NCBI GenBank assembly: GCA_035268685.1
Contig: DATFKK010000104.1
Coordinates: 1-52,589, forward strand
Direction: 5' to 3'
Source: Candidatus Krumholzibacteriia bacterium
Lineage (GTDB): Bacteria; Krumholzibacteriota; Krumholzibacteriia; JAJRXK01
DNA length: 52,589 bases
Below, piece after piece: positions 34,995 through 43,111 of this stretch (its first letter is position 1; each line of letters opens with the position of its first letter). Position numbers and translations under genes: made by a program. The notes under the pieces were generated by a model that was given only the letters and a program-made list of their open reading frames with translations, was not told the DNA's origin and made no database searches.

Positions 34995-36209
34995 CTAGTT
35001 CAGGCCGACGGTGGCGCCGAGGTACCAGACCAGCGGGTCGTTGTTCCCGAGCGACAGCGTCTTGCCCAGGTTCTCCTTCACGAGCTGGAAGTCGATCCGG
35101 ACGTTCTCCGTCGGCTGAGCGAACAGACCGGCCGACCAGTCGTAGTCGAAGTCACCGCTGGAGGAGTCGACCGGCTCCCCGTCGTTGGTCTGGCCGTCGA
35201 GATCCTCGGTGCTGCTCCGCTCGTACTGACCGGTGACCGCACCCATGATCCCGAAGTGGTCGGAGATCTTCTCCCACGCGGCGACGCGCACACCGGGGAT
35301 CATGAACGTGGTGTTCGTGACCTCGGAGTCACCGGGCTCGGTCTTCAGGTTGAAGTACGACCCGACGAACTCGACCGACGTCTGACCGTCGACCTCGTTC
35401 TTCAGGAAGCGACCGGCGTTGGCCAGGAAGCCGAAGGCGCTCTCGTCGGTGTTGTCGTTCGGGCCACCGCTACCGAACACGAAGCTACCCTGGTAGATGT
35501 ACAATTCGGTGTCGTAGCGGGCGTTCAGGCTGAAGTTCAGGAAGTCGCCCTCGACCGACTGCACTTCACCACCGGCGAGACTCTCGTCGGTCTCGCTCTG
35601 CAGGGTCAGCTCGGTCGAGACATGCAGACCGTTGCCATTGCCCCAGCTCGCCTGCAGACCGTAACCGTAAGCGCTATCTTCGACCGTCTGGTCGTTGTCC
35701 GCGCCTGCGGCATCGTTCGTGTTGGTCTCCGCGGCCCACAGGACGTTGACCGCCCAGGCACCGCTCGTCAGCGGCTTGGCGATACCGACGTTGATCCAGG
35801 GGTTGTCCAGCGCGTTCAGGTTGTCCGCAGCATCCCCGAACATGCTCGGCATGAAGAAATCGCCCGCGCGATTCCCACCCCAAAGGAAGTTGGCAGCCTG
35901 ACCACCGAGGTCGGTCCGACCGACCTGCATGTTCAGCCAGAGTTCGTCGTAGGCTTCCCACCAGACGCGGGCACGGCCACCGTCGTCTGCATCACCCACG
36001 AGCGACTGCGAAACGAGTTCGGCGCCGGAGCCGTTGTACACGGCCAGGTGCGGCCAGGCGTTCAGGAGAGCCGTGGTGTTGTTGAGCGTGGTCCCGCGCA
36101 TGCTCGAGTGCGCGGCTTCCGACCCGATGGTCGCGTCGTTGGCGTTGGCCAGGGTCGGCATCGCGACGATGGCCACGATGGCCAGCGTGCGCCAGAAAGC
36201 GGACTTCAT
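34995..36209 (-). CDS. Outer-membrane beta-barrel protein (porin-like)
   Basis: 404 residues with a signal peptide ([17 protein letters not shown]). The mature protein is acidic, low in Lys, and made of alternating strand-like segments such as [45 protein letters not shown] (core) and [12 protein letters not shown] at the C-terminus. Base composition is slightly less GC-rich than the neighbours, with many Asn codons, which suggests high expression or different history. The promoter (TTGACA) and strong terminator also point to an abundant protein. Family and substrate not identified. Confidence 0.75.
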
Positions 36210-36360
36210 TGAGCCTGCTCCTTGGTTGATCACCTCGATGCGTCACCGGGTCCGACGGGCGGTCGCTTCCCTCGTTCCGACCGCTTCTTCGCCGGCGACA
36301 TGACCAGGTCGGGACAACGCGCCGAGCGCCGAGAGCCCTTTCCGGTCGTTCAAGCGCGAC

Positions 36361-36388
36361 ACGGTAGTACGAGTGGGGTGGGTGTCAA
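36361..36388 (-). promoter_or_regulatory. Promoter candidate for the porin-like gene
   Basis: A perfect TTGACA (36388-36383 on the minus strand) is followed after 16 bp by TACCGT (36366-36361). The leader would be about 145 nt. Confidence 0.55.
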
Positions 36389-36429
36389 TGCGTTTTCGGA
36401 TCGTCTCCCCAGGAATCTGCACAAAATCG

Positions 36430-36458
36430 TTGATCAGATCCTTACCAACACCGATTAT
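36430..36458 (+). promoter_or_regulatory. Promoter candidate for the GT-C/TPR gene
   Basis: TTGATC (36430-36435) and GATTAT (36453-36458) with a 17-bp spacer lie about 100 bp before the start at 36557. The intergenic region 36210-36556 holds this promoter and the divergent porin promoter, and nothing else that I can see. Confidence 0.4.
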
Positions 36459-36556
36459 GGGAGATTGTTGCGAGAAACCGTCCGCCTCTTCCCGAGCCCG
36501 GTCCGCGACGACTCCCCCCGTCCGGTCGACCCCCGCCGGGTCCCGTTCGCCCGACC

Positions 36557-38680
36557 ATGACGCCCAAGGGACGGCCTTCACGCACCGAAGTGATCGGGGT
36601 CCTGGCCCTGGCCACCGCCGCATTGGCCCTGCGTTTCGTGCATCTGGATTGGAGCCTCCCGGCGATCGAGGAGGAGGCCCTTCCCACGAAGAAGGCCTTC
36701 GGAATGTGGGGCTGGGAGACGGGAACCTTCCAGCTGGACCCCGAGACCGCGGGCTGGCCCTCCCTCTCGTTCTACGTCCACCTCCTGTGGCAATTCGTCT
36801 ATTACGGGTGGGGGCGACTGACCGGCGACTTCGCCGGCCCGCTCGATTTCTGGGTCTCGCAACAGCTGGATCCCACGCCCCTGATGCTGTGGTCGCGCGG
36901 CCTGAGTGCCGTCGTGTCGACGGTGCCGGTGGTCGTGGCCTGGTTCTGGGCACGGCGCTTCGGGCTGAGCGCACCGGGCGCGGCGCTGGCCGCTCTGCTC
37001 GTGGGCATCAGCCCCGTCATGGTTCGCCACGCGCAGATGATCGAGCCCGACGCGCTGGTCACCATGCTCGCCGCCCTGGCGATGCTCGCGTTGCCACGTG
37101 TGCTCACCCGCGGCTCCACGCGCGACTACGTGGTGGTCGCGATCCTGGCCGGACTCGGTGCCGCGAGCAAGTACACGCCCGTTCTGCTGTGCGTGAGCAT
37201 CTACGTCCTGCATCTCGTGCGCCTGCGACGTGAAGGGCGATCGCTCGCCGCCCTCGGCCTCGACGACGCGCGGCTGGGATGGGCGGCCCTGGCCAGCGTG
37301 CTCACCTTCTGCGTGGCCAGCCCCTACACCTTCGCGAACCTCGAGGTGCTTCGGCGCGATCTCGCCTATCAGCTCATGCACATGAGCGCCGGCCACTTCG
37401 GTCACGCCGAGCAGGGGGTGGGCTACATCCACTACCTCACGCGCGTCCTCCCACGCGCGCTGGGCTGGCCGGCGTTCGCGTTGTCGATCGCCGGACTCGT
37501 CGTCATGACCCGACGTCGCGGCACCGAAGACATCGCGTGGCTGGCGGCCTTCGTGCCGTACTTCCTGGTGATGGGATCGCTGAGCACGCAGTTCGATCGT
37601 TACATGCTGCCGTTGGTGCTGCCGTTGGCGGTGTCGGCGGCGGTCGCGCTCCGTGCTGCCGTCGAACGCTGGCCCCGGACCACCGAACACCCCGTGCCGG
37701 CGATCGCAGTCGTCGCCGTGCTCCTCCTCGCGTGGCCGGCGCAGGGTGTCGGACGTTTCCTCGAGGCCCAGGGGCGGACCAGTACCCAACAGGCAGCGGC
37801 CGACTGGTTCGCGGCCCAGGCCGGACCCGACACCACCACCGTCGTCACCGAACGATACGGCCCGCATCTGCTCGAAGATCCCAGAACGACCGACGACTAC
37901 CAGCCGATCTTCGAACGACTCGACGAGGACCAGGCGCAACGCCTCTTCGACCGTCCCTTCTTCGTCTACCAGCTCCTGCCCATGTACTCGGCGCGGGTAC
38001 ACCTGACCGCCTACTACTACGACCTGCGTCACTTCCTGGCCTACGACTACGTGGTCACCTCGGGTGCGGTCCGGCGGCGCTACGAGGGCGAGCCCGAACG
38101 CTTCCCGCGGCAGGTCGAGTTCTACCGTGACCTGAGGAAGTACATGGAGGTGGCGGCCGACTTCGCGCCCGGCGACGACCATCGCGGTCCCCGCGTCACC
38201 CTGCACCGCTGGACGGAGCAGGGCCGGCGCCAGCTGATCCGTGAACACGGTCGGCCGGACGCCTCGCACTACCGCGCGTGGACCGAGCGCGTGCACGCGC
38301 CCGACTTCCTGGCGTTCGCCGAACAGGTGGCGGTGCACGCCGAGCGCGAGGAACGTCATCGGCAGGCGATGACCTACTACCGCATCCTCGGCGAGACGTC
38401 CGAGCCCGACCTGCGTCCGTACTGGATCGAGCGTGCGGGGATCGCCGCCGTGAATGCCGACGACCTCCGCCGAGCCACGACCCTCTTCCGGGCGCTGCTC
38501 GAACGCGATCCCGGCAACGTGGTCGCCCTGGGCAATCTCGGCTTCGTGGCCGAACGCACGGGCCGGTCGGACGAGGCCCGTACCTGGTACCGCCGCTGCA
38601 TCGAGGCCGACACCGAGGGAACGGCTTCGCGCTGGGCCCGTCGTCGTCTGGAGGCGATGGACGGCGGAGATCGCCGCTGA
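36557..38680 (+). CDS. GT-C-type membrane glycosyltransferase (GT39/PMT-like) with C-terminal TPR
   Basis: 707 residues. About ten transmembrane segments fill residues 10-410. Acidic residues in the first periplasmic loop (IEEEALPTKKAFGMWGWETG) sit where GT-C enzymes hold catalytic acids, and HAQMIEPDALVTMLA and SKYTPVLLCVSIYVLHL match the helical core of dolichyl-phosphate-mannose-mannosyltransferase relatives. Residues about 610-690 form one or two TPR units (IERAGIAAVNADDLRRATTL, GNLGFVAERTGRSDEARTWY), an uncommon addition. It probably moves a sugar from a polyprenyl-phosphate carrier to a periplasmic acceptor. Start ATG 36557 lacks a strong Shine-Dalgarno. Confidence 0.75.
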   Translation: MTPKGRPSRTEVIGVLALATAALALRFVHLDWSLPAIEEEALPTKKAFGMWGWETGTFQLDPETAGWPSLSFYVHLLWQFVYYGWGRLTGDFAGPLDFWVSQQLDPTPLMLWSRGLSAVVSTVPVVVAWFWARRFGLSAPGAALAALLVGISPVMVRHAQMIEPDALVTMLAALAMLALPRVLTRGSTRDYVVVAILAGLGAASKYTPVLLCVSIYVLHLVRLRREGRSLAALGLDDARLGWAALASVLTFCVASPYTFANLEVLRRDLAYQLMHMSAGHFGHAEQGVGYIHYLTRVLPRALGWPAFALSIAGLVVMTRRRGTEDIAWLAAFVPYFLVMGSLSTQFDRYMLPLVLPLAVSAAVALRAAVERWPRTTEHPVPAIAVVAVLLLAWPAQGVGRFLEAQGRTSTQQAAADWFAAQAGPDTTTVVTERYGPHLLEDPRTTDDYQPIFERLDEDQAQRLFDRPFFVYQLLPMYSARVHLTAYYYDLRHFLAYDYVVTSGAVRRRYEGEPERFPRQVEFYRDLRKYMEVAADFAPGDDHRGPRVTLHRWTEQGRRQLIREHGRPDASHYRAWTERVHAPDFLAFAEQVAVHAEREERHRQAMTYYRILGETSEPDLRPYWIERAGIAAVNADDLRRATTLFRALLERDPGNVVALGNLGFVAERTGRSDEARTWYRRCIEADTEGTASRWARRRLEAMDGGDRR

Positions 38681-38696
38681 GCTCCGACCTCGTCGC

Positions 38697-39449
38697 TCAG
38701 AACTCGCTCTTGAGCGCCCCGAACGAACGCGTCTCGGTGGGAACCACCGTGTCGGCACTCAGCGGCTCGGCATCGAGCTCGATCCACCGCCACTGCGTCG
38801 CGCCCATCGACTGGTAGCCGAGCGATCCGAAGACGACCCGCCCGACGCCGAGGGTCCCCGAGCCGTTCCCCCGCGCCCGTAGGACCTCGGTACCGTCGAC
38901 CCAGACGGTGAGTGTCTCGTCGGGGTCCTCGATCCGCGAGTTCTTGCGGATCCGCAACACCCGCTCGTCGACCAGGGACGCGGGCGCCGACGCAACCCAC
39001 CGCAACTCACCCCCCGAGCGTTCGGCCACGTCCACGCGATCGTGGTGCAGCTGGACGATGAGCTCCAGTCCCGGTCGACTGACCTCGACCACCGCGCCCT
39101 GACCGCCGATGTTGCTGTGGACCTTCACCGCGGCCCGGAACTCCACGGCGTGCTCGGCCTGCAGTTGGCCAAGCATGCCCTGGAAGGCGATGAACCCGTC
39201 CCCCATGTTGTCGTTGCAGACCAGGGTACCCTCGTGCAGGAAGGCGTGCGCCGTCCCGATCCGCGACCAGGGCGAGTTCGAGGCGTCGGGGACCTGCGTC
39301 ATCTCGGTGCGGTCGCCGACCGTCACGAGGTCCTGCGCCCGAGAAGGCGCGGCTGCCGCGAGGGCGACGAACGCAGTGGCGAGGGCGAGGCGAGTGACGG
39401 CCTGTCGGTGGCGAAGCCGAGCGAGCGTCGGGAGCCGGCGCATGGACAT
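38697..39449 (-). CDS. Exported protein of unknown function
   Basis: 250 residues with a long signal peptide (AVTRLALATAFVALAAAAPSRA). The mature part of about 210 residues looks all-beta, with strands such as HAVEFRAAVKVHSNIGGQ, LELIVQLHHDRVDVAE, TLTVWVDGTEVLRAR and QWRWIELDAEPL, in the style of jelly-roll or concanavalin-like modules. I do not recognise the family. It ends 16 bases before the convergent GT-C/TPR stop. A palindromic site lies about 95-125 bases upstream of its start. Confidence 0.7.
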   Translation of the reverse strand: MSMRRLPTLARLRHRQAVTRLALATAFVALAAAAPSRAQDLVTVGDRTEMTQVPDASNSPWSRIGTAHAFLHEGTLVCNDNMGDGFIAFQGMLGQLQAEHAVEFRAAVKVHSNIGGQGAVVEVSRPGLELIVQLHHDRVDVAERSGGELRWVASAPASLVDERVLRIRKNSRIEDPDETLTVWVDGTEVLRARGNGSGTLGVGRVVFGSLGYQSMGATQWRWIELDAEPLSADTVVPTETRSFGALKSEF

Positions 39450-39541
39450 CGTTTCCGGACGCCCGGCCCCGGTGCGATCGATCGGCGGGGAGAGCCGCCG
39501 TCGAACAGATCCGGAGGTGGGCCCGTCCCGGGGGGAGCAAG

Positions 39542-39572
39542 GTGGTCAGGATGTTACCATTTTCGTGACCAC
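39542..39572. promoter_or_regulatory. Inverted repeat, possible operator
   Basis: GTGGTCA (39542-39548) and TGACCAC (39566-39572) are perfect inverted half-sites with 17 bases between them. On the minus strand a TAACAT box lies between the arms, upstream of the exported-protein gene at 39449. Binding protein unknown. Confidence 0.4.
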
Positions 39573-39757
39573 GACGGGAAGCCCCCCGGGATTGCAGAGG
39601 GTTGTGGCTCGAAGATTGTGCACTCGCCCGACACCGGGCCGATGCTTCGGACCCGCGAGCGCAAGCGTCACCGGACCGTGACGAAAAAGGCGAAAGAAAA
39701 CCGTGAACGCGAGCGCTGCTCCCCGTCCGACCGGAACGCACAATCTCGGAGGCACAG

Positions 39758-39796
39758 AAAAAAAGGAGCGGACCCGCGCGCCAGCGATGGGTCCGC
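39758..39796 (-). terminator. Canonical Rho-independent terminator
   Basis: On the minus strand GCGGACCC pairs with GGGTCCGC (8 bp, 13-nt loop) and is followed by CTCC and seven T residues. It is the only terminator in the window with a true U-tract. It could end the EAL-HDOD transcript (158 bases past that stop) or a short RNA starting near 39817. Confidence 0.8.
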
Positions 39797-39817
39797 CCCC
39801 CTTCCTGTCCTTCCACC
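39758..39817 (-). ncRNA. Candidate RpoN-dependent small RNA
   Basis: Predicted transcript of about 60 nt between a near-consensus -24/-12 element (39843-39829) and the U-tract of a terminator. The 5' 25 nt are purine-rich and Shine-Dalgarno-like (GGUGGAAGGACAGGAAGG), the rest is the terminator stem. It contains no AUG and no plausible reading frame. Regulatory RNAs transcribed by sigma-54 are known (Qrr RNAs of Vibrio), but there is no sequence similarity claimed here. The rest of the 39,450-39,953 gap shows only the palindrome at 39,542 and no gene. Confidence 0.4.
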
Positions 39818-39828
39818 CGCGACCAGGA

Positions 39829-39843
39829 GCAGCAGCCGTGCCA
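39829..39843 (-). promoter_or_regulatory. Sigma-54 -24/-12 promoter downstream of the EAL-HDOD gene
   Basis: On the minus strand TGGCACG, four bases, CTGC, then T. GG and GC are separated by exactly 10 bases, with one mismatch to TGGCACG-N4-TTGCW. Predicted start near 39817. No gene follows before the terminator at 39,758. Confidence 0.55.
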
Positions 39844-39953
39844 CCGGATCCCGGCATTGAAAACCAACGACTTACGCGATCGTCCCTCGGGTCACCGTAC
39901 GAGGAGGTACGCCAGGCGTACCGTTGCGGAACGCTCGACGGACGCGGCCGCGC

Positions 39954-41198
39954 TCAGAGACCGATCTCCCGGCCGGCCGTTGCCGACCACTCGACGGCAT
40001 CGAGGTACGCCCCTCGGATCTCTGACGACTCGAGCCGGCCGAATCCGACCTTCTCCCAGTCGCCGCGTTCGTAGGCGACCACGCACTCGAGGGCCTGTCC
40101 CATACGTCCTTCGCGATTCAGCAGGGCGGTGTTCAGATCGCTGGCCAGGGGCAACTGCTCGACGATGTCCTCCATGGACATGTCCAGGAGGGCGTCGAGG
40201 GTCGAGAAGAGTCCCGCCGTGAAGTACACGTCGGGATTCGCCACCCCGGCGCGGTCGGCGAGCTGCTCGCACATGCGCGCCCGGACCATGGCCGTGACCA
40301 TCAACTCGTCGGGCTTGTCGTCGAGAGCGCTCAGGGTGAGAAGGCTGACCCACGCGCGGATGTGGTGCAGCCCGAGCAGCACGAGCGTCTGCCGGATCGA
40401 CTCGACCTTCTGTGGCAGTCCGTAGAAGGCCGAATTGATCAGACGCAGCAGCTTGTAGCTGAGCGAGAGGTCTTCGCGGATGATCCGCTCGAGCGTGTCG
40501 ATCTCGACGTGCGGATCCTGCAGTTTGGCCAGCAGCCGCAGAGTGGCCAGGCGGTTGGCCGGGATCCGGTGCCCGCCGACCACGTTCGGCCGGCACAGGA
40601 AGTAGCCCTGGAACAGGTCGAAACCCAGGTCCTTGCAGAACTCCAGGTGCTCGGTCGTCTCGACCTTCTCGGCCAGCAGGACCACGTCGAAGGGCCGGAC
40701 CATCCGGACCTGTTCCGCGATCTCGGAGGGCGACAGGGCCAGCACGTCGATCTTGACGATGTCGGCGATCTCGAGCAGCGGATCGAAGTGCGGCTGGTAG
40801 ACGAAGTCGTCGAGAGCGATCCGGTAACCGCTCTGGGCGTAGCCGCGGATGCTCTCGATCAGCGGAGCGTCGACCACCTCGTCCTCGAGCAGTTCGAGCA
40901 CCACGCGGTCGCGCGGAAGCGGCATGTTCTGCGCCGACAGGAAGAAAGTTCGGGTCAGGTTGAGGAACGCGGGCAACTGGCCGACGAGCTGATCGAGCCC
41001 CAGATCGAGGAAACTGTCGAGCAGCACGCGGACGCTGGCCTGGTCGCGGTCGGAGAAGTGCGCGGCCTGGTCGTGCGCCTGTTGGCGGAAGAGGAGCTCG
41101 TACCCGACCACGTCGAGCTTCAGGTCGAAGATCGCCTGACGCGCGACGAAGGCGTTCGCGAGTGACGAGCCGTTCTGCGATGCGGTCGGTGCGTCCAT
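39954..41198 (-). CDS. EAL-HDOD (YuxH-type) signalling protein
   Basis: 414 residues. The N-terminal half is a degenerate EAL domain: the signature reads VVGYELLFRQQ instead of an EALLR site, with IALDDFVYQPHFDPLLEIADIVKID and LLAEKVET in place of the metal-binding set. c-di-GMP hydrolysis is therefore doubtful and binding is possible. The C-terminal half is an HDOD domain (IIREDLSLSYKLLRLINSAF, LLGLHHIRAWVSLLTLSAL, MVRARMCEQLA). Such proteins act in motility, taxis or stress control. Start ATG 41198 with AGGA upstream. A strong sigma-54 promoter sits 42 bases before the ATG. Confidence 0.88.
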   Translation of the reverse strand: MDAPTASQNGSSLANAFVARQAIFDLKLDVVGYELLFRQQAHDQAAHFSDRDQASVRVLLDSFLDLGLDQLVGQLPAFLNLTRTFFLSAQNMPLPRDRVVLELLEDEVVDAPLIESIRGYAQSGYRIALDDFVYQPHFDPLLEIADIVKIDVLALSPSEIAEQVRMVRPFDVVLLAEKVETTEHLEFCKDLGFDLFQGYFLCRPNVVGGHRIPANRLATLRLLAKLQDPHVEIDTLERIIREDLSLSYKLLRLINSAFYGLPQKVESIRQTLVLLGLHHIRAWVSLLTLSALDDKPDELMVTAMVRARMCEQLADRAGVANPDVYFTAGLFSTLDALLDMSMEDIVEQLPLASDLNTALLNREGRMGQALECVVAYERGDWEKVGFGRLESSEIRGAYLDAVEWSATAGREIGL

Positions 41199-41239
41199 CC
41201 CATGTCCTGGTTCCGGGTCGCGAGAGCCCACCCGACGCC

Positions 41240-41256
41240 TGCCATTGGCGTGCCAA
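41240..41256 (-). promoter_or_regulatory. Sigma-54 -24/-12 promoter of the EAL-HDOD gene
   Basis: On the minus strand TTGGCACG, four bases, TGGC, then A: GG (41254-41253) and GC (41242-41241) are exactly 10 bases apart and all but one consensus position match. The predicted start near 41229 gives a leader of about 30 nt, a realistic arrangement. Confidence 0.65.
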
Positions 41257-41332
41257 GCTTGCGCCGAGGGGACCCCGACCCCACACTGCAGGCGCGTTCG
41301 CCCCTGATTCGACCCCTCCCGCAGGCCCGGCG

Positions 41333-43111
41333 GTGGCTCCCGTGCAGTCCTCCCCTCCGCGTTCCCCTGCACCGGCGGTGCTCTGGCTCTTGGCCTTCGT
41401 GGCCGTCGTGAGCCATCTGCCGGCCGTGGGGTTCGACTTCGCCCAGGACGACTTCGCCGGCCTGGCGCGGGCCGCGGGCATCCTCGACGTCGAGGGCTGG
41501 CCACCCCGCCTGTGGACGAGCACGGTCACGTGGTCGGCACTCTGGCCGGCCTTCGGAAGCGACCCCGGCCCGTACCACGGGCTCTCGCTGATTCTGTTGC
41601 TGGGGATCGCGGTGTTCGCGGCCCGCCTGGCCCACCGGCTCGGCGCGGGAGACGCGGGTGCCGCCGTGACCGGCTTCCTGACCCTCCTCGGCCCCACCAC
41701 CGTCCTCCCCGTGGCGTGGGTGAGCGCCGCTGCGGAGCTGTGGGCCGTGCTCTTCGCGCTCGTCGCCCTCGACCTGTGGATCACGCCGGGTCGCGGGATC
41801 CGGCCGCTGGCGGCCGGCGTGGCGGCAGCCCTGTCGGTGCTCTCGAAGGAGCCCGCACTCGGGCTCTTCCTTCTGCTGCCACTGGCGTCGCGCTGGTTCG
41901 TCGACGAAGAGCCCGCACCCACGCGGCGAGGCCGTGCACTGGTGGTGACCGCGCTGGCCATGCTCGCCGTGATCGGCGCGCTGCAGATCCGCTCGGCCTT
42001 CGCGCACGGACCGGGCGATCCCTATGCCCTCGGGGGCGTGGCCGACGTCGCCGGAAACCTTCTGCGATCTCTGGGGTGGGCGGTGTGGCCGTGGCCGGGG
42101 TCGATTCCGCCGGGATGGCTGGCGCGGATCCTGGGAGGGATGGTTCTCGCCGTGGTCGGCGTCCTCGCCGTCCGGCGGGCCCGCCGGGACGATCCCCGGG
42201 TCCTCTTCCTCGGCCTGCTGGCCCTCGTGTCGCTCGCTCCGACGGTGGTCCTGCGCGACCACCAGTACACCTACTACGCGCTGCTCGCGAACGTGGCCGT
42301 CGCAGCGATCTTCGGCCTGGAGATCGGTCCGAGGATCGACCGCCGACTGCGGTCGACGACACCTCGTGGGGCGGCGCTGGTCGGCGCGTCGGTGCTCGTG
42401 GGCGCCGCCTCGATCGTCGGTGTCTCCGCGCGCGTCCACGCGCGGGGCGAGGACGGCCTGCTGGTCGATCCGATCCTCCGTCGTAGCTCGATCGTCGCCG
42501 ACGTACGAGCGCAGATCAGCGACCTGCGCCGGGCCCGTCCGTCGCCGACGGCAATCGGTGTCCTCCAGGCCGCGCGCACCGCCGACCCGCCCGACCCCGA
42601 GGCCTCTCGCGACCGGCTCGTGTTCATCGGCACCCCGATCTACCTGTCGCTGCAGGGCGATCGCGGTCTCGGAATCCTCTCCGGCGAACGGCTCGACGCA
42701 CGCTGGATCGGCCACATCGACGACGTCCCGGGGGGCGGATTCGTGTTCCTCGATGCCGGGGACGCCGTCCTTCGCCCGCTCGGGCCGCCGGACAACGCGC
42801 GGATCTACGCCGCGATGATCGCGGTGGCCGGCGGGCAGTTCGCGCGGGCTCGCCACGAGCTCTGGAGTGTGATCAGCGAGCAGGGAACGCGCGTTCGCTT
42901 CGCCTTCGACCCCGCGAACCTGCCGATCCGCCCCGAGGAGCTGGACGCCGAAGCTCCCGTGTTCGCCCGGGAACTGGCGGAAGCCGCCGAGGCCGATCCG
43001 ACCGACGGCCGGATCCTGCGTCTGTTCGAACAGATCTACGAGCAGGTGCGGGGACGGGAGCTGGTGCGGGATCTCGACGTGCCGCTGCGGGCACCGCGCT
43101 TCGATCAGTGA
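41333..43111 (+). CDS. Large polytopic membrane protein (GT-C-like), function unknown
   Basis: About 592 residues from a GTG at 41333 (AGG seven bases upstream); a GTG at 41342 is equally possible. Some ten transmembrane segments occupy the first 360 residues. The loop after TM1 reads FDFAQDDFAGLARAAG, with an Asp pair as in GT-C glycosyltransferases, and LSKEPALGLFLLLPLASRW follows a TM as in GT39-related proteins. The C-terminal 230 residues are soluble and unfamiliar (LVFIGTPIYLSLQGDRGLG). It overlaps the convergent lipid-kinase gene by 7 bases. A glycosyl-transfer role is inferred from fold-like features only. Confidence 0.6.
   Translation: MAPVQSSPPRSPAPAVLWLLAFVAVVSHLPAVGFDFAQDDFAGLARAAGILDVEGWPPRLWTSTVTWSALWPAFGSDPGPYHGLSLILLLGIAVFAARLAHRLGAGDAGAAVTGFLTLLGPTTVLPVAWVSAAAELWAVLFALVALDLWITPGRGIRPLAAGVAAALSVLSKEPALGLFLLLPLASRWFVDEEPAPTRRGRALVVTALAMLAVIGALQIRSAFAHGPGDPYALGGVADVAGNLLRSLGWAVWPWPGSIPPGWLARILGGMVLAVVGVLAVRRARRDDPRVLFLGLLALVSLAPTVVLRDHQYTYYALLANVAVAAIFGLEIGPRIDRRLRSTTPRGAALVGASVLVGAASIVGVSARVHARGEDGLLVDPILRRSSIVADVRAQISDLRRARPSPTAIGVLQAARTADPPDPEASRDRLVFIGTPIYLSLQGDRGLGILSGERLDARWIGHIDDVPGGGFVFLDAGDAVLRPLGPPDNARIYAAMIAVAGGQFARARHELWSVISEQGTRVRFAFDPANLPIRPEELDAEAPVFARELAEAAEADPTDGRILRLFEQIYEQVRGRELVRDLDVPLRAPRFDQ

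Follow-up and report, generated by a model that had tools for sequence, protein, structure and literature searches.

Sigma-54-dependent small RNAs have been described as Qrr in Vibrio (PMC10162802) and as GlmY/GlmZ in Enterobacteria (PMC6075780, PMC3844500). These RNAs act in trans, are encoded between genes and are transcribed from a -24/-12 promoter served by activator sites further upstream; the locus presented here, on the minus strand of the window (the whole stretch of 52,589 nt that was analysed, from an assembly of 4.6 Mb in 202 contigs), resembles them in its intergenic position and its promoter-type box and also has a candidate for the upstream site. Unlike Qrr and GlmY/GlmZ, the predicted RNA is only ~60 nt long, has one stem, belongs to a different phylum and occurs where Hfq was not found; the Rfam search gave no match to Qrr, GlmY/GlmZ or any other sRNA family at the gathering score, and the matches below threshold were at chance level. 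With CsrB/CsrC and RsmX/Y/Z it shares GGA motifs and the presence of CsrA in the same genomes, whereas it carries two to three close GGAs in a single-stranded tail on one hairpin in place of multiple GGA hairpin loops, has FliW beside csrA, and likewise matches none of their Rfam models. Small RNAs located in 3' UTRs with a promoter of their own are similar in lying behind a gene whose terminator is shared, but the promoter here is of the sigma-54 type. We present the locus as a putative sRNA gene with a conserved sigma-54-type promoter, which would add a new family to a class of RNAs already known.

An open-access literature search returned no paper naming both small RNAs and Krumholzibacteriota; this candidate, detected in raw sequence and supported by covariation, would thus count among the earliest regulatory RNAs proposed for the phylum. 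Were it expressed, a bacterium in which Hfq was not detected would possess a sigma-54-dependent regulator of very small size. It would then provide a clean system in which to ask by what means sRNAs function in the absence of Hfq, and whether CsrA can be under the control of an RNA where FliW is present too.

The best explanation of the locus is an sRNA gene of its own, of ~60 nt, placed within the 3' region of an EAL-HDOD protein gene (39954-41198, minus strand; Pfam HDOD 3.7e-21, EAL 2.2e-12), for which comparison with its orthologues makes ATG 41198 the likely start within a long ORF reaching 41504. Sigma-54 RNA polymerase would initiate near 39817 from the -24/-12 box TGGCACGGCTGCTGC (39829-39843, minus strand), which reads TGGCACG-GCTG-CTGC from 39843 to 39829 with exact GG-N10-GC spacing. 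The predicted start at 39817 lies 12 nt past the -12 C, and the transcript would open with GGTGGAAGGACAGGAAGG, in which the 11-nt segment GGAAGGACAGG occupies 39804-39814. Transcription is expected to end at a hairpin with U tract (39799-39758), the predicted RNA thus spanning 39758-39817 on the minus strand up to the last T. The hairpin (39765-39799) is formed by the arms GGGGCGGACCC (39799-39789) and GGGTCCGCTCC (39775-39765), which pair over 11 bp including one G-U, with a nested 3-bp stem at the tip, and is followed by T7 (39758-39764); on folding, the purine arm and the U tract are able to lengthen the 11-bp stem. Folding stability exceeded that of shuffled sequences with z of -3.6 to -4.0 in the window (-3.6 to -4.3 overall), while about 11 nt at the 5' end were left unpaired. 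The RNA would accordingly consist of an exposed purine-rich 5' end (GGAAGGACAGG, predicted to be unpaired or nearly so) carried on a stable terminator hairpin. The initial annotation had described, within 39758-39843, the GG-N10-GC box, a start near 39817, the purine-rich 5' part and the seven T residues, all of which were found in the sequence at the stated coordinates, whereas its stem of 8 bp is in fact the 11-bp stem with the nested tip. It had also stated that no reading frame fits in the interval. Long spurious ORFs of this G+C-rich DNA do overlap the element, but in two of the three genomes bearing it, the window and G001, GGAAGGACAGG has no start codon behind it, and a conserved small ORF is therefore absent.

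Conservation was examined within the family, where two further genomes carry the element: G001, of the same genus (Candidatus Krumholzibacteriota MAG, contig JAJRXK010000053.1), and G003, of another genus. In both, it stands directly behind the EAL-HDOD orthologue with its parts in the same order, namely TGGCACCGAGGATGC, 12 nt, GGAAGGACAGG and hairpin in G001, and TGGCATGCCGCGTGC, 14 nt, GGAAGGACAGG, hairpin and the U tract TTATTTTTTT in G003; the distance from box to GGAAGGACAGG is 14 nt in the window, and the U tract of G001 is weak (TATGATT). The predicted start falls 1-3 nt ahead of GGAAGGACAGG in each of the three genomes, and the 11-mer can therefore be taken as the predicted 5' end of the RNA. 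In the neighbouring gene, identity at four-fold degenerate positions was 0.40-0.41, against 0.35-0.36 expected from composition at saturation; neutral DNA would therefore not have remained alike, yet all three genomes share the 11-mer without a single change. The stem follows the opposite pattern, its sequence changing and its pairing being retained: 8 of 14 pairs were altered on both sides with pairing kept, and all 42 cells of the three-sequence alignment were paired (42/42), compared with 36-50% in slid controls. Because the structure guided the fitting of this alignment, it is biased towards pairing; the stems are nonetheless plain in single folds. Comparison of these three sequences, all from one family, indicates that box, 11-mer and hairpin are maintained by selection. 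The interpretation as a sigma-54-dependent sRNA, for which the initial annotation had proposed a conservation check in related genomes, thus gains support from the -24/-12 box, the GGAAGGACAGG end and the covarying hairpin being kept at the same place in G001 and G003, and from the RpoN genes described below. A conserved sigma-54 sRNA gene is in our judgement highly probable, and the gene together with an active 5' end is probable, with somewhat less assurance.

The box by itself would not have carried this conclusion. TGGCACN6TGC is expected 0.5 times per window at the window's composition and was observed once, which is chance level, and the -12 part reads CTGC, ATGC or GTGC among the three genomes instead of TTGC. 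A chance occurrence is rejected on the strength of conservation, though the box alone lacks significance: box and GGAAGGACAGG in order arose in 0 of 200,000 shuffles for each of the two orthologous intergenic regions, and the weight of the element thus derives from its retention across genomes. For the whole genome, the strict consensus TGGCACN5TTGCW gave 2 matches against 6 control matches, hence no enrichment. As a separate observation, a perfect sigma-54 site, TTGGCACACCCGTTGCT, occurs elsewhere in the source genome near L060 1501-1516 on the minus strand (G000:C173:61493-61508), a short distance ahead of a potential ATG start codon (MTTTKFGADYGKIYIG...), and is likely to be a genuine sigma-54 promoter of that genome.

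With regard to the machinery, one RpoN DNA-binding domain per genome was found in all four family genomes. Activation of the promoter would fall to an enhancer-binding protein, for which a dyad, CGTAC-CTCCTC-GTACG (39896-39911, minus strand), is the candidate site; it precedes the -24 box by 53-68 bp. When the DNA upstream of the box was compared among the three genomes without supervision, this CGTAC-N6-GTACG element emerged as the best conserved 16-mer, with 10 identical positions, its counterparts being TGTACCTCAGGGTACG in G001 and TGTTCCTCAGGGTGCG in G003. Conservation of this order was reached in 3/800 shuffles at the best of three widths and in 72/800 and 60/800 at the other two, and an enhancer-binding-protein site at 39896-39911 is thus suggestive only. 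Upstream activator sites ordinarily lie ~70-150 bp upstream (PMC3844500), and the position of the dyad is considered usual for an enhancer site. The window also contains a perfect palindrome, GGTACGCCTGGCGTACC, at 39906-39922, which overlaps the dyad and is not retained as such in G001 or G003.

The position of the element relative to its neighbours bears on whether it is a gene in its own right. Gene order over 34995-41504 (a protein without Pfam match at 34995-36233, a PMT_2/TPR protein at 36557-38680, a conserved secreted protein without Pfam match at 38697-39449, and the EAL-HDOD protein) is kept in G001 and mostly in G003, where two genes are inserted, and the element is linked to the EAL-HDOD gene in all three genomes. 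Upstream of 38697-39449, at window ~39550-39570 on the minus strand, stands AAAATGGTAACAT (G001: AAAATGTTAGAAT), a possible -10 promoter of that gene's own. One rival would see in the element no more than the EAL-HDOD gene's intrinsic terminator together with a piece of 3' UTR, and regard the box and purine stretch as coincidental. In all three genomes a hairpin with T-rich tract does stand ~100-150 nt past the EAL-HDOD stop on the same strand, no other terminator-like site was seen between them by eye, and the box alone is at chance level. Such a terminator leaves unexplained, at saturated divergence, an invariant 11-mer and a GG-N10-GC box at near-fixed spacing, and the stem's own sequence is what has not been kept; we consider this rival quite improbable. 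Since no second terminator was seen between stop and hairpin in the three genomes, the same hairpin would probably end the EAL-HDOD mRNA too and so serve both transcripts. Alternatively, the element could be promoter and leader or attenuator of the downstream gene 38697-39449, which in the window and in G001 alike is syntenic and shares the element's strand. In G003, however, the next gene is convergent, its stop codon lying at the U tract, and two genes separate the element from the orthologue of the downstream gene; the element is thus associated with the EAL-HDOD gene, not the downstream one, and is not a leader. G003 already comes close to excluding a leader; the window hairpin is moreover predicted to be a strong terminator, and -10-like elements lie nearer the downstream gene in the window and G001 (TAACAT, TAGAAT).

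Granting an independent sRNA, its conserved 5' end would most likely act as a seed that pairs with C/U-rich sites of mRNAs independently of Hfq, for which no Pfam match was obtained in the four family genomes (95-99% complete). A CsrA site requires chiefly GGA, so that invariance across the full 11 nt is more in keeping with a base-pairing seed, and we advance seed pairing tentatively as the mode of action. An exact 10-mer search for antisense targets returned little above its reversed-pattern control, mostly inside coding sequence (Leu-Ser-Phe codons); no target shared among the genomes was found by this search of exact sites, and where the 5' end was matched to the beginnings of nearby genes, pairing stayed at chance level. 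A real sigma-54-driven RNA could instead be a minimal CsrA decoy, its GGA-rich 5' end being tied to motility control with no base pairing involved. CsrA is present in exactly the three RNA-bearing genomes and absent from G002, the fourth of the family, and csrA adjoins fliW inside a flagellar gene cluster (L156 7709-8482, G000:C26; CsrA alone is a Pfam match there, the other names being read from translations). Two GGA motifs of the tail are invariant, one of them in the form AAGGA, and two genomes have a third; the lack of a detected Hfq was also counted in favour of a decoy. This co-occurrence nevertheless concerns four genomes and may merely track flagella, and the GGAs lie 4-5 nt apart and outside hairpin loops, unlike strong CsrA sites, which are found in hairpin loops at a spacing of ~18 nt (PMC4894983). 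That all 11 nt are invariant goes beyond what CsrA requires, and FliW and CsrB/C-type sRNAs tend toward mutual exclusion (PMC4894983), which counts against a decoy as well. We hold the decoy to be unlikely. Its fuller form is more doubtful still: a new, Hfq-independent family of ~60-nt sigma-54 sRNAs would, by way of a minimal 5'-tail CsrA decoy, couple the flagellar control exerted by CsrA and FliW to enhancer-controlled transcription beside an EAL-HDOD gene of c-di-GMP type, and were this true, the RNA would be an antagonist of CsrA in a FliW-containing phylum. Finally, the Shine-Dalgarno-like end might bind the 16S anti-SD and act on ribosomes, given that in each of the three genomes GGAAGGA can form a 7-bp duplex with UCCUUUC, at about -10 kcal/mol. 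Such pairing is much weaker than that of a full Shine-Dalgarno sequence, similar to any ordinary one and so not distinctive, a start codon is absent downstream in two of the three genomes, and the conserved CAGG contributes little; action on ribosomes appears very improbable. Seed pairing is the tentatively preferred reading of the 5' end.

Wider searches were made for further members. G002 has neither the element nor an EAL-HDOD gene, and the remaining matches of a DNA similarity search within the family were unrelated. When 80 genomes of the phylum were searched with a covariance model, no members beyond the known ones came up; G001 was missed by the strict filters of this search, while the locus itself scores E 2.5e-9, and the weaker matches (G078, G030, G004 and others), being without box or 11-mer, look like chance. 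A scan of 84,980 species with a pattern that demanded TGGCAC, and was thus blind to boxes of the G003 type, returned 15 matches, of which G001 alone was convincing, the other 14 being without hairpin or in unrelated settings and mostly coding-like. Viral contigs yielded one match, with no hairpin visible in the sequence inspected. In a Gammaproteobacteria MAG (contig JAJRUF010000115.1, L047 5827-5868, minus strand), GGAAGGACAGG comes after a good sigma-54 box, TTTGGCACGAGCTATGCA, but there is no terminator hairpin. This MAG stems from the same dive metagenome as G001, and the gene whose leader contains the two motifs encodes a PEP-CTERM-like protein; we judge the match to be a coincidence, an mRNA leader or a shared leader motif. 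The RNA family is so far known from three genomes.
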